Positions 1,291 through 7,343 of a stretch of 7,809 nucleotides of DNA are shown here, in pieces. The stretch's first letter is position 1, and each line of letters begins with the position of its first letter. The notes below the pieces were generated by a model. The model was not told the origin of the DNA and did no database searches. It saw only the letters and a program-made list of their open reading frames with translations. This DNA is from Candidatus Latescibacterota bacterium (GTDB lineage: Bacteria > JAAXHH01 > JABIQT01), in NCBI GenBank assembly GCA_018667995.1, contig JABIQT010001016.1, forward strand, positions 1 through 7,809, written 5' to 3'. The position numbers and the translations under genes were made by a program.

Positions 1291-1494
1291 TCACACCACA
1301 AGATCTTTTCTCTTTGTTCGATCTCGCCCCGGATTCTTCGGTGACTCTTCTTTCACACCTACACCCTCATTTTTCCGTCGATCCTCGACAGAACAGCTTC
1401 CCGAGAATCATGTGGGCACTCCCAGTCGAGGTAGGACATATTTCATTATCACAACGTAGACCACGAGCATCACTATTAGACCAAGGCCATCCAT
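1291..1494 (-). CDS. Candidate small membrane selenoprotein (TM segment, PT-U-FSGSC motif, charged tail) coupled to dnaE
   Basis: ATG at 1494 lies five bases after the dnaE stop. Its Shine-Dalgarno sequence GGGGAG (1508-1503) sits inside the last dnaE codons at eight-base spacing, so translation is probably coupled. Residues 3-22 form one hydrophobic membrane segment (core GLIVMLVVYVVIM at 5-17), followed by K18, P22, R23 and LGVPT. Codon 29 is TGA (1410-1408). Read conventionally the product is a 28-residue membrane peptide. Read as selenocysteine, the frame continues as U-FSGSC-SVEDRRKN and a Lys/Arg/Glu-rich tail to a TGA at 1291, giving 67 residues: a membrane anchor, a UxxxxC redox-like motif and a soluble tail. 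A nine-bp hairpin with a GGA loop lies 14 bases after the UGA. TGA ends ordinary genes here, so general recoding is unlikely. I recognise no named family. The small ORF itself is fairly well supported; the Sec reading is inference. Confidence 0.5.
1373..1393 (-). promoter_or_regulatory. bSECIS-like stem-loop immediately after the in-frame UGA
   Basis: On the minus strand TTCTGTCGA (1393-1385) pairs with TCGACGGAA (1381-1373), nine base pairs with one G-U, around the loop GGA (1384-1382). The stem begins 14 bases after the UGA at 1410-1408, and the loop starts 23 bases after it. Bacterial SECIS elements lie within the coding frame just downstream of the Sec UGA, and their small apical loop usually begins with G. 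This hairpin fits in distance, stem length and loop. The surrounding sequence also encodes the tail, as required of a bacterial SECIS. A SelB-binding role is inferred only. Confidence 0.45.
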
Positions 1495-1499
1495 AATCT

Positions 1500-4400
1500 C
1501 TACTCCCCACCGTTATCGTTTCCATTGCCGTTTCCGTTCCATCGCCCATTCCTCTGTGGCCGGTTGCTACCATATCCGGTCCAGCCGCTGACATTGCTCT
1601 TCAGTGGCGCCGCTCTCAGTCGCGCGTTCTCCGTTCCCACGACTTTCCGCACGGCAGTGAGCAGACTCTGTGTAGGCGATACCCGATGTTTCTCGCCGGC
1701 CTTCACGGCCACTTCACCATGCTCATCTGACCGGACGGTGAATACCACATCGCAATCACCCGGATGAGCGGTTAATGTTTCTTTCAAGGTATCCACCGTG
1801 GCTTCATTGGATTGCTCCGGAACAATGCGAACATGGATTGATCGTGACAGCTTATCACGCGCATCTTCCAGTGACATGACTTCTGCCGCAACCACTTTTC
1901 GGTCATCATCCTTAACAGATATTTGACCGCGGACCAGAATCAGTGAGTCCATATTCATGACTGCCTTATGTAACTCATACTCGCTGGAAAACACGAGGAC
2001 CTCCCCAGCGCCCGTAAAATCCTCAAGGGTGATAAACGCCATGGATTTGCCCTTACGATCGACAATTGGCTTAATCTCGGTGATTATTCCTCCGACGACG
2101 ACATCCTCCTCAATGTCCCGCACCTGATCGAGCCGCTTCATCTCTGTCGTAGCAAATCCTCTCAGTTCGTCAGCATATTGAGCCAGAGGATGGCCGGATA
2201 CGTAGAATCCCAGCATCTCCTTCTCCATGACCAATGCCTGACTTGTGGGCCACTTCTGCACAGTAGGCATCGGTGGCCGATGGATCATGGGATTTTGGTT
2301 CTCATCGTCATCACCCACATCAAAGAGAGATGTCTGCCCTTTGTCCCTGTCGTTCTGCAGAGACTGGGCCGAGTCAATCGCACTTTCCAGAATTTCCAGA
2401 AGCTGTGCACGGTGCCCGTTCAACGAATCACAGGCCCCCGATTGTATCAAGCTATCGAGCACACGCTTGTTTGCAAGACGCAGCTCGATGTTCTCACACA
2501 TATCATATAAATCGTTAAACTTCCCGAATTGGTTCCTGGCGTTTATGATCGACTGTACCGCACCCAAGCCCACGTTCTTGATGGCACACAGACCAAACCG
2601 AATCCCATCACCCTCAACAACGAAACCCGTCTGGCTCGTATTCACATCGGGCGGGAGAACCGTCAACCCCATCTTACGGCACTCGTTTATGAGCATGACG
2701 ATTTCATCACTATTGGACATTTCATTGGACATCAAGGCGGCCATGAATTCCCTGGGATAATGGGCCTTCATGAATCCTTCTTGATATGCCACAATCCCGT
2801 AAGCGGCCGAATGGCTCTTGTTGAACGCGTAACCTGCGAAATACTCAATCAGGTCAAAGATCTCCTCGGCAATTTTCTGATCAATGCCGTTGGCGACCGA
2901 TCCCCCGATAAAGTCGCGCTTCTCCGCTGCCATAACTTCGGCGCTCTTTTTGCCCATAGCCTTTCGCAGAATATCCGCTCTACCCAAGGTATAGCCTGCC
3001 ATGTCTCTGGCAATCTGCATGGCCTGTTCCTGATAGACGATCAGTCCATAGGTCTCCTTGAGTGATTTCTCAAGCACGGGATGCAGATAGACCACTTCCT
3101 TGCGACCATTCTTACGGTCGATGTAGTCATCAACCACTCCACCGTACAGCGGGCCGGGCCGGCATAGGGCATTCATGGCTATGAGATCTTCGACAGCACT
3201 TGGCTGCAGCCGCCGGAGATAATCGAAAAGCCAGGAACTGTTGAATTGGAAAATACCTGCCGTATCACCGCGACAGAATAGATCAAAAGTCTTCTGGTCG
3301 TCTAAGGGGATCTCCTCAAGATCAATTTCATCCCCGGTATTTTCCTTAATCATCGCTATCGCGTCCTGGATCACCGAAAGATTGCGCAGTCCAAGGAAAT
3401 CCATTTTAAGCAGGCCGACTTCCTCCATATAATCGCCGGTATACTGCGTGACCACATCGTCCTTGTTACTGGGTTTATACAGAGGTACGTAATCGGTGAG
3501 GTCGCCTGGCGCGATAACGACTCCCGCGGCGTGAACCGAAGCATGGCGCGCAAGACCTTCAAGCGTTTTGGCAAATCCGATGAGTTGCCCTTCGTTACCG
3601 CCGGAATCGGCTACCTGCTTGAGCTCCGGCACCTGATCCATGGCCTTATCAATCGTCATTTTCAGCTCTGTAGGCACGAGCTTTGCCACGTGATCCACTT
3701 CGCCATATGACATTCCGAGAACACGCCCCACATCTCGAATGGCCGCCTTCGCTGCCATCGTTCCAAATGTGATGATCTGTGCTACGCTCTGTTTTCCGTA
3801 CTTCTCTATGACATAGTTGATAACCTTATCGCGCTCCCGGTCCGCAAGATCAATATCGATGTCAGGCATGCTGACCCGTTCCGGATTCAAGAACCGCTCG
3901 AAGAGCAAACCATATCCGATAGGATCGACATTCGTGATGCCCAGCGTGTAGGCCACCAGACACCCCACAGCGGATCCACGGGCCATAACAGGAATCTTGG
4001 CTTCACGGGCAAAGCGCACGAAATCGGCAACGATCAGGAAATAGCCGGGATATCCCATCTGATTGATCACACCAAGCTCATAATCCAGCCGGGCGGTGAG
4101 CTCCTCGGTGATGACGCTGTACCGTTCTTTCAACCCGTCATAGGACAATTTATGGAGATACTCGGCCAGATTCTTGTAGCCATCCGGTACCGGGACCTGC
4201 GGGTGTTTCAGATTATCGAGCTCCATCTCAAAGTCGATCATCTCCGCTATTTTTACTGTGTTTTCTATGGCACCGGACACATGACCAAACATATGAGACA
4301 TCTCGCCGGCCGTCTTAAAATACAGCTGATCTGTCGCAAATTTCAATCGTTTGGGATCAGCCAGTTCTTTGCCCGTCTGTATACATACGAGTACGTCCTG

Positions 4401-5060
4401 CGCGGCGGAATCTTCCCTGTTCAGATAGTGGGCATCATTGGTGGCCACTAGCGGCAGGTCGAATTCTTTGGAGAAATCGATCATGGCATTGTTTATGGGT
4501 TTGTCAAAGTCAAGTCCATGATCCTGCATTTCCAGGTAGAGATTGCCATCGAATATTTCCCTCAGGCGCTTGGTCTTCTCCCTCGCTTTGTCCATCTGTC
4601 CGCCCACGACATGATTGGCCACCACGCCCTTTGCACACGCTGACAACGCGATCAAACCTTCGCTGTGCTTCTCCAGGAGATCCAGGTCGACGCGTGGTTT
4701 GTAGTAGAACCCCTCTAAATACCCGGCCGACGACAACTTCATCAGGTTACGGTATCCGGTGGCGTTCTTCGCGAGGACTACCAAATGAGTGGTTTGCGCT
4801 GAACGGTCACCTGCTCGCGGTGGCTTCTTTTCAAACCTGCTGCCGGGCGCGACGTACAACTCGCAGCCAATAATCGGTTTTACATTGGCGCTCTTCATGG
4901 TCTTGTAGAATTCGACCGCGCCAAACATGTTACCGTGATCGGTCATGGCCAGAGCCGGCATGTTGTAGTCAAATGCCGTTTCTGCCAGATCTGAGATCCG
5001 ATTGGCTCCATCTAGTAGGCTGTAGTGAGTATGGGTGTGAAGGTGTACAAACGACGGCAT
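1500..5060 (-). CDS. dnaE: DNA polymerase III subunit alpha
   Basis: Catalytic subunit of the replicative polymerase: template-directed DNA synthesis in the cytoplasmic replisome. At 1186 residues it is full length. The N-terminal PHP domain (about 4-215) keeps the putative metal ligands H6, H8, D17, H42, E67, H92, C142, D209 and H211. The palm carries D400 and D402 (PDIDID) and D554 (KMDFLGLR), aligned with the E. coli catalytic D401, D403 and D555. Further hallmarks are ARHASVHAAG (504-513), CRPGPLYGG (633-641) and AFNKSHSAAYG (745-755). A helix-hairpin-helix region follows (about 820-880), then a clamp-binding motif QTSLF (909-913), an OB fold (about 985-1065) and a C-terminal tail domain. 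The last 15 or so residues are Gly/Asn-rich. Start: AAGGGG (5075-5070) lies nine bases before ATG, with an in-frame TAA at 5084-5082. It has its own promoter and long leader, and a small membrane ORF begins five bases after its stop. Confidence 0.98.
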   Translation of the reverse strand: MPSFVHLHTHTHYSLLDGANRISDLAETAFDYNMPALAMTDHGNMFGAVEFYKTMKSANVKPIIGCELYVAPGSRFEKKPPRAGDRSAQTTHLVVLAKNATGYRNLMKLSSAGYLEGFYYKPRVDLDLLEKHSEGLIALSACAKGVVANHVVGGQMDKAREKTKRLREIFDGNLYLEMQDHGLDFDKPINNAMIDFSKEFDLPLVATNDAHYLNREDSAAQDVLVCIQTGKELADPKRLKFATDQLYFKTAGEMSHMFGHVSGAIENTVKIAEMIDFEMELDNLKHPQVPVPDGYKNLAEYLHKLSYDGLKERYSVITEELTARLDYELGVINQMGYPGYFLIVADFVRFAREAKIPVMARGSAVGCLVAYTLGITNVDPIGYGLLFERFLNPERVSMPDIDIDLADRERDKVINYVIEKYGKQSVAQIITFGTMAAKAAIRDVGRVLGMSYGEVDHVAKLVPTELKMTIDKAMDQVPELKQVADSGGNEGQLIGFAKTLEGLARHASVHAAGVVIAPGDLTDYVPLYKPSNKDDVVTQYTGDYMEEVGLLKMDFLGLRNLSVIQDAIAMIKENTGDEIDLEEIPLDDQKTFDLFCRGDTAGIFQFNSSWLFDYLRRLQPSAVEDLIAMNALCRPGPLYGGVVDDYIDRKNGRKEVVYLHPVLEKSLKETYGLIVYQEQAMQIARDMAGYTLGRADILRKAMGKKSAEVMAAEKRDFIGGSVANGIDQKIAEEIFDLIEYFAGYAFNKSHSAAYGIVAYQEGFMKAHYPREFMAALMSNEMSNSDEIVMLINECRKMGLTVLPPDVNTSQTGFVVEGDGIRFGLCAIKNVGLGAVQSIINARNQFGKFNDLYDMCENIELRLANKRVLDSLIQSGACDSLNGHRAQLLEILESAIDSAQSLQNDRDKGQTSLFDVGDDDENQNPMIHRPPMPTVQKWPTSQALVMEKEMLGFYVSGHPLAQYADELRGFATTEMKRLDQVRDIEEDVVVGGIITEIKPIVDRKGKSMAFITLEDFTGAGEVLVFSSEYELHKAVMNMDSLILVRGQISVKDDDRKVVAAEVMSLEDARDKLSRSIHVRIVPEQSNEATVDTLKETLTAHPGDCDVVFTVRSDEHGEVAVKAGEKHRVSPTQSLLTAVRKVVGTENARLRAAPLKSNVSGWTGYGSNRPQRNGRWNGNGNGNDNGGE
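1510..1539 (-). repeat. Degenerate hexamer repeat encoding the Asn/Gly tail of DnaE
   Basis: Five head-to-tail hexamers related to CCGTTT (plus strand) run from 1510 to 1539 and encode alternating Gly/Asn/Asp at the extreme C-terminus of DnaE. The tract lies after the folded C-terminal domain and is probably a disordered tail that can change length by slippage. It also sits just upstream of the ribosome binding site of the next ORF. Confidence 0.55.
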
Positions 5061-5372: not shown

Positions 5373-7343
5373 TCAGGTGTCCTCACCGTCGGTTACTCGA
5401 ATGCCTTTTATGTTCGCAATCTTGAAGGACCGGGCTCTCTCTTCCCAGTGGCTGTAGGCCTCCACATGGGGCGTCCCGCGGGACCTATCTATATGGTCCG
5501 GGCGGATCTTCTGAAGTTTGCTGTTGCTCCTATTGCCTGTGAAATATTCGACCAAAACCGTCTTTTCCTGTCTGATCGCCATCTCCAGGAGTTCCTGCGT
5601 CTGCTTCGAGGAGAGATTCTGCATAATGGTGGATGCTTCGAGGTGACGACTGTCATCGTCTTTTGTATGCAGGCGGCGAGTCAAGCGGAAGCCGGGAAGC
5701 GTCTCGTCAATACCCACGACCGATGCCGCAGGCCGATGCGCACTGTGTCGAGCCCATACATCGGCAAAGTACTCACGGGTGAAATGATGCCGTTCTAAAC
5801 TTAGTTCTAGATCGGCTCCAACAACCTGCGATTTCGGCATGAATCCCAAATTCCGCAGGACCTCCATCATCTCCCGATAACGGTGGCGCTCCACAATGAG
5901 CGCATCGGGGGCAACCTCTCCCAGCACGTAGGGAGCAAGTTGACTGTGTGCCTTAATATGCCGTGCCAGTTCAGGCTCGGTCGTTCTAAGAAGGAACACG
6001 TCCATGAAGTATACCTGACCGTAATTTTCGCCCCATTCACGCACAGAGTACTCTACATTTTGAGGTATCTCTTTGTGGGAATGCCGTTCAAGGAAAGCAA
6101 TGATCGCCTCGCCGGACATGCCCGCGTCGCCAGCTCGGTATACGGTATCACGAGTTATTCGGTAGGTCAAGGTAACGTCTGCGGACAGCAGATCCGCAAA
6201 GCGCTCCAACTCATCTCGAATCACGAGTTGAACGGTGTGAGGTACGATGACTTCGAACGTCGGTTGAACAAGAAAAGCCTCAACCCACATCCCTTCCTCG
6301 CCCCAAGTATGATTACCGAGGACACTCCTGCCCGGGTACGACACGGCTAGAGCGGCTGGTGCGTTCTCCTGAACACCGACCCGTCGTACTACCCCCAACC
6401 ATTCGAGTTCGCACAGTGCCTCTTCAATGCTAAGTCGGTTGTGCGTCAATACGGCCGCGTCATTCGTCACGTCAGGCATGCACGCAATCACCAGATCCGT
6501 CAACCTATTCTGGTTTATTGCCCCTACATCGACACTGCGATTGAGAATGTTTAATAGGATTGCGGCTCGCTGGGAACCATTTTGCCGTTTCGTATACCAG
6601 TATGCCAGTAAATCGTCCAGCTTCTCATCAGTCGGAAGATGCAGCCACTGCTCGAATGCAGTGGAGCACTTCAGACGGCTGTCATCTTCGTATATCAGCT
6701 GCCGAGTGCGACAGTACTGTATCATAAGATCAAGCCTGTCAGGGTAAGGACTCATCGAGGAAGAAGATCGGCGGTCTTTTGATTCCAGTCGTTCATACAG
6801 TTGATCCAAGGAGCGCTTGTAAATCACATCTTTGTCTTTCAGACGTACGGGCTCGGCCCTTAACCAGCTGAGGAACGAAAAGATATCCCGAATGAACGCG
6901 AGACTGCCCGTGTCCATACCCGAATCCACCTTTGTATCCGTCTCCAATTGCCCGAGGATTTCAGTACGGAATTGACGTTCCAGAATCTCGCTGATATCCG
7001 AAGGAATGACATATTCGGGCGAACGGAGATATCCCCAACGTCCAACGATGAGTCCCTTAGAAAGCAGCGAGAACAGCCGCTCCGCCAGCTGACCATCGGT
7101 TGACGTCGTTGCGTCACAGGAATACCCGTGCTCACCGGCTATCATCACAGCAACCAGCAGCTCGCGATCCCGCGCCGATAACGATGCTGTCAGAGAAGCA
7201 ATGAAGCCCGGTTGAAGCATCTGGATAGGCAACTCACGAAGCAGTCGGGCCCGGGATATCATACTGGATTTGACGTCTAGCGTCTCTCCCATGAGTTTGA
7301 GATCGTCGAGCGGCAATTCCTTCAGGTAATCATGAAAAGTCAT
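5373..7343 (-). CDS. Helicase-associated-domain protein with C-terminal WYL-like domain
   Basis: A 656-residue soluble protein of no settled function. Residues about 353-475 match the XPB/Ssl2-type helicase-associated region (Helicase_C_3-like): QPTFEVIVP (360-368), a Tyr-Arg-Ile-Thr strand (394-397), then PQNVEYSVREWGENYGQV (427-444). Residues about 582-652 look like a WYL domain (TVLVEYF at 595-601, IRPDHI at 613-618, HVEAYSHWEERARSFKIANI at 626-645). WYL domains often sense ligands or nucleic acid in transcription and defence regulators. No Walker A or DEAD/DEAH motor is present. The N-terminal 350 residues are helical and include a repeat-like LLRELP segment. Start: AGGA (7356-7353) lies nine bases before ATG, and an in-frame TAG lies two codons upstream, so no earlier start is possible. 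It lies 72 bases after guaA, probably co-transcribed, and is followed by a terminator. A DNA-binding or regulatory role is inferred. Confidence 0.75.
   Translation of the reverse strand: MTFHDYLKELPLDDLKLMGETLDVKSSMISRARLLRELPIQMLQPGFIASLTASLSARDRELLVAVMIAGEHGYSCDATTSTDGQLAERLFSLLSKGLIVGRWGYLRSPEYVIPSDISEILERQFRTEILGQLETDTKVDSGMDTGSLAFIRDIFSFLSWLRAEPVRLKDKDVIYKRSLDQLYERLESKDRRSSSSMSPYPDRLDLMIQYCRTRQLIYEDDSRLKCSTAFEQWLHLPTDEKLDDLLAYWYTKRQNGSQRAAILLNILNRSVDVGAINQNRLTDLVIACMPDVTNDAAVLTHNRLSIEEALCELEWLGVVRRVGVQENAPAALAVSYPGRSVLGNHTWGEEGMWVEAFLVQPTFEVIVPHTVQLVIRDELERFADLLSADVTLTYRITRDTVYRAGDAGMSGEAIIAFLERHSHKEIPQNVEYSVREWGENYGQVYFMDVFLLRTTEPELARHIKAHSQLAPYVLGEVAPDALIVERHRYREMMEVLRNLGFMPKSQVVGADLELSLERHHFTREYFADVWARHSAHRPAASVVGIDETLPGFRLTRRLHTKDDDSRHLEASTIMQNLSSKQTQELLEMAIRQEKTVLVEYFTGNRSNSKLQKIRPDHIDRSRGTPHVEAYSHWEERARSFKIANIKGIRVTDGEDT

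Follow-up and report, generated by a model that had tools for sequence, protein, structure and literature searches.

A short gene interrupted by UGA behind dnaE very likely encodes a membrane selenoprotein of a seemingly undescribed family

Does the short reading frame located directly behind dnaE in a Candidatus Latescibacterota genome end at its first TGA codon, or is this codon read as selenocysteine (Sec, U)? The window, by which we mean the whole stretch of 7,809 nucleotides that was analysed (contig JABIQT010001016.1), carries all the features described below on its minus strand. There, dnaE (positions 1500 to 5060; 1186 amino acids according to the list of open reading frames; 75% identical to its counterpart in a genome from the same order) is directly followed by the gene in question (1291 to 1494), whose product is predicted to be a membrane selenoprotein of 67 residues. 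Its ATG lies 5 bases past the dnaE stop (TAG, 1502-1500), and a ribosome binding site, GGGGAG (1503 to 1508), can be read in the sequence 8 nucleotides ahead of this ATG, within the 3' end of dnaE. The 28 codons ahead of the UGA read MDGLGLIVMLVVYVVIMKYVLPRLGVPT, the in-frame TGA (1408 to 1410) occupies the position of residue 29, the 38 open codons after it read FSGSCSVEDRRKNEGVGVKEESPKNPGRDRTKRKDLVV, beginning with FSGSC, and the frame is closed by a terminating TGA (1293-1291). Residues 4-23 (1426 to 1485) form a transmembrane helix, hydrophobic in all members of the family described below, and the AlphaFold2 model, obtained with moderate confidence, consists of this single helix with the rest unstructured. 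A preliminary description, made from sequence alone, had proposed this layout in full, from the ribosome binding site and the 5-base gap to the two runs of codons, the FSGSC motif and the charged tail, and every detail was correct; we also agree with its remark that a lone open run of 38 codons is not significant. On the other side of the gene, a small frame (960 to 1154) taken from the list of open reading frames encodes a 64-residue product without a Pfam match; it also adjoins dnaE in two relatives of the same order and is therefore a conserved gene. An ordinary neighbour, a 656-residue protein with Helicase_C_3 and WYL domains, is encoded at 5376-7343.

The 67-residue translation, searched against 59 genomes, returned three distant genomes that share this layout and have their TGA at the corresponding codon. 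Using a profile of four sequences, 42 carriers, including the genome of the window, were found among 384 genomes (about 11%), a diverse sample with mostly one or a few genomes per family. With the 42-sequence profile, members were found in 19 of the 20 genomes of one bacterial family, in all 4 genomes of a small phylum and, in a larger phylum, in 168 of 395 (about 43%). That well over a hundred genomes, spread over many families, repeat this arrangement down to the codon that holds the TGA is far beyond chance. We read 145 distinct members at the sequence level (43 from the first set, 45 new ones out of 52, and 57), and their consensus is a Met, a few residues, one hydrophobic helix, the motif [LF]P[KR][LMF]G[VI]xT, the TGA, xxxxC and a charged tail of about 15-40 residues, for an overall length of about 50-70 residues. 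In the window, the Cys of this UxxxxC motif is Cys34 (1393 to 1395), and its offset, U+5, is kept in most of the further members (49/52 and 48/57). No match to the family was found in a plasmid search. The sole locus given by a contig scan with the single sequence (L039, GVPTCFSGTC) was rejected as a chance match with stops just upstream, and several weak single-sequence matches (L011, L013, L015-L017, L019 and others) also look like chance; two genomes with such matches, G022 and G040, yielded real members by profile search.

The codon that follows [LF]P[KR]xG[VI]xT is TGA in 144 of the 145 distinct members and CGA in one, and it is never TAA, TAG, TGT or TGC. As terminators, these genes use all three stop codons: 22 TGA, 10 TAG and 8 TAA in the first set, and 21, 13 and 23, respectively, in the third. 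The lone CGA (Arg) member (G261; L075, L125) meets a TAA seven codons on and has no clear start, so that decay or a sequencing error is possible. The published model of the bacterial SECIS (bSECIS) specifies a loop of 3-9 nt, a stem of 4-16 bp, a G in the first two loop positions, a spacing of 16-37 nt and an energy of at most -7.5 kcal/mol (PMC13188914). All these criteria are satisfied by the hairpin of the window, TTCTGTCGA-GGA-TCGACGGAA (1373 to 1393), which has 9 bp and the loop GGA at 23 nt from the UGA, the apical loop starting at the 24th nucleotide; its energy is -11.4 kcal/mol over 42 nt and -14.3 kcal/mol over 48 nt. Plain MFE z-scores distinguished the UGA stretch from the stretch 75 nt downstream and failed to separate it from the stretch coding for the transmembrane segment, which is why we relied on a positional hairpin test and on covariation. 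The positional test, which asks for a perfect stem of at least 5 bp and a loop of 3-8 nt with G in its first two positions, 15-30 nt past the UGA, was passed by 127 of 144 members (40/42, 38/45 and 49/57 in the three sets) versus 125 of 849 control stretches at other offsets; the remaining 17 of the 144 members fail this simple test. Among 13 members of equal geometry, all 8 stem pairs examined vary on both sides, with a covariation score of 0.877 as compared to 0.25 after shuffling and 0.06-0.24 after sliding.

Homologues conserved only up to codon 28 would have spoken against a selenoprotein, as the preliminary description itself had stated, and we observed that conservation goes on past this codon. 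When close pairs are compared beyond the SECIS region, their substitutions fall at codon positions 1, 2 and 3 in the numbers 11/3/17, indicating that position 2 is avoided, versus 44/61/54 after the terminator (p = 0.0016 for the difference; nine pairs, small numbers). In two members, G234 (L129) and G092 (L138), the frame stays open beyond the UGA and takes in an entire thioredoxin domain (Pfam, E 6e-29 and 8e-29, respectively), which carries WCAPC in the former and WCGPC in the latter.

We looked for the selenocysteine machinery in the carriers and in the organism of the window. In the 384-genome sample, SelA scored over the TIGR00474 cut-off in 41 of 42 carriers versus 138 of 342 non-carriers (p = 4e-14), and the one carrier without a SelA match (G352) has SelB. 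SelB was over the cut-off in 41 of 42 carriers, the sole exception being the window's own assembly. This assembly, which is 85% complete and in 1165 contigs, contains SelA (E 1e-145), no SelB above the cut-off, and for tRNA-Sec only matches below the Rfam threshold, which ARAGORN reports as Ser/Leu tRNAs. The preliminary description had named a genome without the selenocysteine machinery as a refutation, and SelA, for its part, is present in this one. Among 15 relatives from the same order, 14 have a SelB that scores over the cut-off and one has a weaker match, and we infer that the missing SelB and tRNA-Sec are due to the incompleteness of the assembly. In this order (G001-G015 and G000), the listed SelA matches mostly start at model position 58-72, and the SelA of the window's genome (L001, 397 amino acids) looks short at its N-terminus, as if devoid of the N-terminal domain; the relatives still have SelB. 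Contamination by a foreign contig was considered and rejected, since the dnaE of the window is nearest to that of the same order (68-75% identity within the order, and no more than 53% for the others in the comparison). In the two closest relatives inspected (G013 and G011), the selenoprotein gene is absent at the dnaE locus, and the small downstream gene comes directly after dnaE; the selenoprotein gene is therefore patchy within the order.

Altogether, the TGA exclusivity, the covarying hairpin, the co-occurrence with SelA and SelB, the U+5 Cys and the thioredoxin fusions support the reading of the preliminary description, namely a membrane-anchored UxxxxC selenoprotein. We consider it very likely (probability of about 0.9) that the gene is a genuine selenoprotein gene of a seemingly undescribed family and that its UGA is read as Sec; this evidence is comparative, and neither a protein nor a selenium label has been measured.

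What could such a protein do? At 87 distinct loci, thioredoxin-like genes lie within 1.5 kb of the selenoprotein gene at 34, ArsR genes at 21 and FmdB genes at 18, these counts not being independent since one bacterial family supplies about half of the thioredoxin loci. Around the first 42 loci, Thioredoxin is the Pfam family with the most matches among the neighbours, and thioredoxin-like products account for 16 of 155 near genes versus 2 of 226 farther genes. Further neighbours encode PDO, OsmC, AhpD, rubrerythrin, DUF2892, DUF6132 and CcdA proteins. FmdB matches all share the strand of the selenoprotein gene and lie no more than 600 nt from it, and FmdB-type zinc-ribbon genes adjoin it at L176-L178, L189 and L190, for example. 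The mean charge is -0.24 before the helix and +1.14 after it, with K/R after the Pro in 87/94 cases, and because of the positive charges after the helix we infer that the C-terminus most likely faces the cytosol. The comparative evidence supports that translation continues through the UGA, which is followed by a bacterial SECIS, in organisms bearing SelA and SelB, and that it gives a product in which one membrane helix precedes Sec and, after four intervening residues, Cys, with a charged tail at the end. With the C-terminus in the cytosol, the selenol/thiol pair is predicted to sit at the inner face of the cytoplasmic membrane, where it would most likely be oxidised to a selenenyl sulfide and reduced again in a cycle. 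Thioredoxin-type proteins, neighbours in many genomes and fused in two, may reduce this selenenyl sulfide, and the reduced protein would pass electrons to, or detoxify, a membrane-proximal oxidant, which could be a peroxide, sulfane sulfur, an arsenical or a partner disulfide, the substrate not being established. Given that the protein is a selenoprotein, we lean, by a narrow margin, towards such a thioredoxin-linked redox role, which rests on guilt by association without any measured activity.

Several other explanations were considered. The one that survives best accepts a real selenoprotein family and gives it another role, Sec binding a metal or metalloid such as arsenite or mercury, or the protein acting together with FmdB or ArsR in regulation or membrane assembly. 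This remains possible, as the frequencies of ArsR and FmdB genes given above and the DUF2892 and efflux genes at a few loci are in its favor. However, the two thioredoxin fusions are independent, thioredoxin-like genes lie near 34 of the 87 loci, and thiol redox or oxidative stress is the field of the neighbours for PDO, OsmC, AhpD, rubrerythrin and CcdA; moreover, a metal-binding or regulatory role does not exclude a redox one. It could also be that the window copy is decaying or untranslatable in an organism lacking the Sec machinery, for which the absence of SelB over the cut-off and of tRNA-Sec from the assembly can be invoked. This seems unlikely, since the assembly is incomplete and its SelA match is strong, nearly all relatives of the order have SelB, and the reading frame, the hairpin and the UxxxxC motif are intact. 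A third possibility is that the gene encodes an ordinary membrane microprotein of 28 residues ending at the TGA, what follows being untranslated or a separate short frame. A single-helix peptide of this size is a plausible product, and a Met codon follows the TGA in 18 of 43 first-set members, so that TGA-ATG stop/start coupling can be imagined. However, the site is always TGA in the 144 members with a stop there, yet true terminators are mixed; the codon-position bias, the U+5 Cys and the thioredoxin fusions all lie beyond the TGA; the codon after it is one for Ala, Leu or Ile in many members; the SECIS hairpin covaries; and the carriers encode SelA and SelB. We therefore regard the microprotein as very unlikely. 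Finally, recoding of UGA to another amino acid (a Trp or Gly code change) or selenium-free programmed readthrough would also leave conserved sequence past the TGA, but is all but excluded by a window dnaE whose 1186 codons are open under table 11 without an in-frame TGA, by the spread of the family over many unrelated genera, and by the SelA/SelB association and the bSECIS hairpin, which fit Sec specifically.

Coming back to the selenoprotein reading, the preliminary description had expected homologues with Cys at codon 29, and this expectation failed: no Cys form was seen among the genomes searched with the family profiles (the 384-genome sample, the one bacterial family and the larger phylum), and the position is aligned by Sec alone in everything searched. 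Cys homologues are usual for selenoproteins without being obligatory. Nearly all selenoproteins have them, and SECIS-independent searches depend on them (PMC13188914), so that the lack of a Cys form would explain why methods based on Cys/Sec pairs overlooked this family. No model of NCBIfam (June 2026 release) matches the window protein or the 42 members, apart from one chance match far below the cut-off; Pfam gave only chance matches below the cut-off for the same proteins, and PDB chains gave no convincing match. Nothing recognisable with the architecture or the motif of the family is listed in the inventory of May 2026, which covers 119 families of prokaryotic selenoproteins (PMC13188914). 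Within these sources, GenBank and preprints being outside their scope, what appears to be new is the protein family, together with its Sec-only architecture of a single helix; the decoding mechanism is known.

The new family shares with the known bSECIS selenoproteins of this inventory the in-frame UGA, a hairpin behind it whose loop has G in its first two positions, SelA and SelB in the carriers and a U paired with a nearby Cys, whereas none of those listed combines a single helix, a length of about 50-70 residues and the motif GVxTUxxxxC, and nearly all of them have the Cys homologues that were not found here. With thioredoxin-like selenoproteins and membrane-anchored thioredoxins it shares the genomic association with thioredoxin, the two thioredoxin-domain fusions and a small redox motif. 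However, the former have UxxC in a thioredoxin fold, whereas the conserved core of the new family is one helix and an unstructured tail, without a thioredoxin fold, and has UxxxxC beside the membrane helix. The SAO and Tso selenoprotein operons (Haft and co-workers, via PMC13188914) resemble it in that their selenoprotein genes lie within redox or metal gene neighbourhoods; they have NCBIfam models according to PMC13188914, and the new family matches none. The DUF6132 and DUF2892 proteins, encoded by neighbours of the new family, are likewise tiny membrane proteins with a Cys (a TGA in one DUF6132-like protein) near the membrane, but they differ in sequence, and the new family matches neither Pfam model. 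The DUF6132-like protein in question is encoded in G055 (L040:10068 onward, plus strand), just downstream of the new selenoprotein, and an in-frame TGA replaces the Cys of its CPLT motif. This gene has its own SECIS-like hairpin, ACCTGTG-GTT-CACAGGT, with the loop 21 nt after the UGA; its Pfam match is below the cut-off, and DUF6132 is absent from the 2026 list of selenoprotein families (PMC13188914).

Bacterial selenoproteins are largely sought through Cys/Sec pairs (PMC13188914), and gene callers stop at UGA; a family of about 50-70 residues that has only the Sec form is passed over by both. In a bolder reading, which we consider likely, this is among the most widespread selenoprotein families of bacteria, missed on account of its tiny size, its truncation by gene callers and the lack of any form other than Sec, and it would provide in many lineages a selenol relay at the membrane surface working with thioredoxin, in itself a reason to keep the Sec machinery. 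If the family is real, it adds a new one in about 11% of a diverse sample (42/384) and about 43% of one phylum sample (168/395), and estimates of which organisms use selenium, and why, would change. It would also point to a Sec-specific function apparently not replaceable by Cys, and would offer a very small system in which to study membrane selenol chemistry and UGA recoding.
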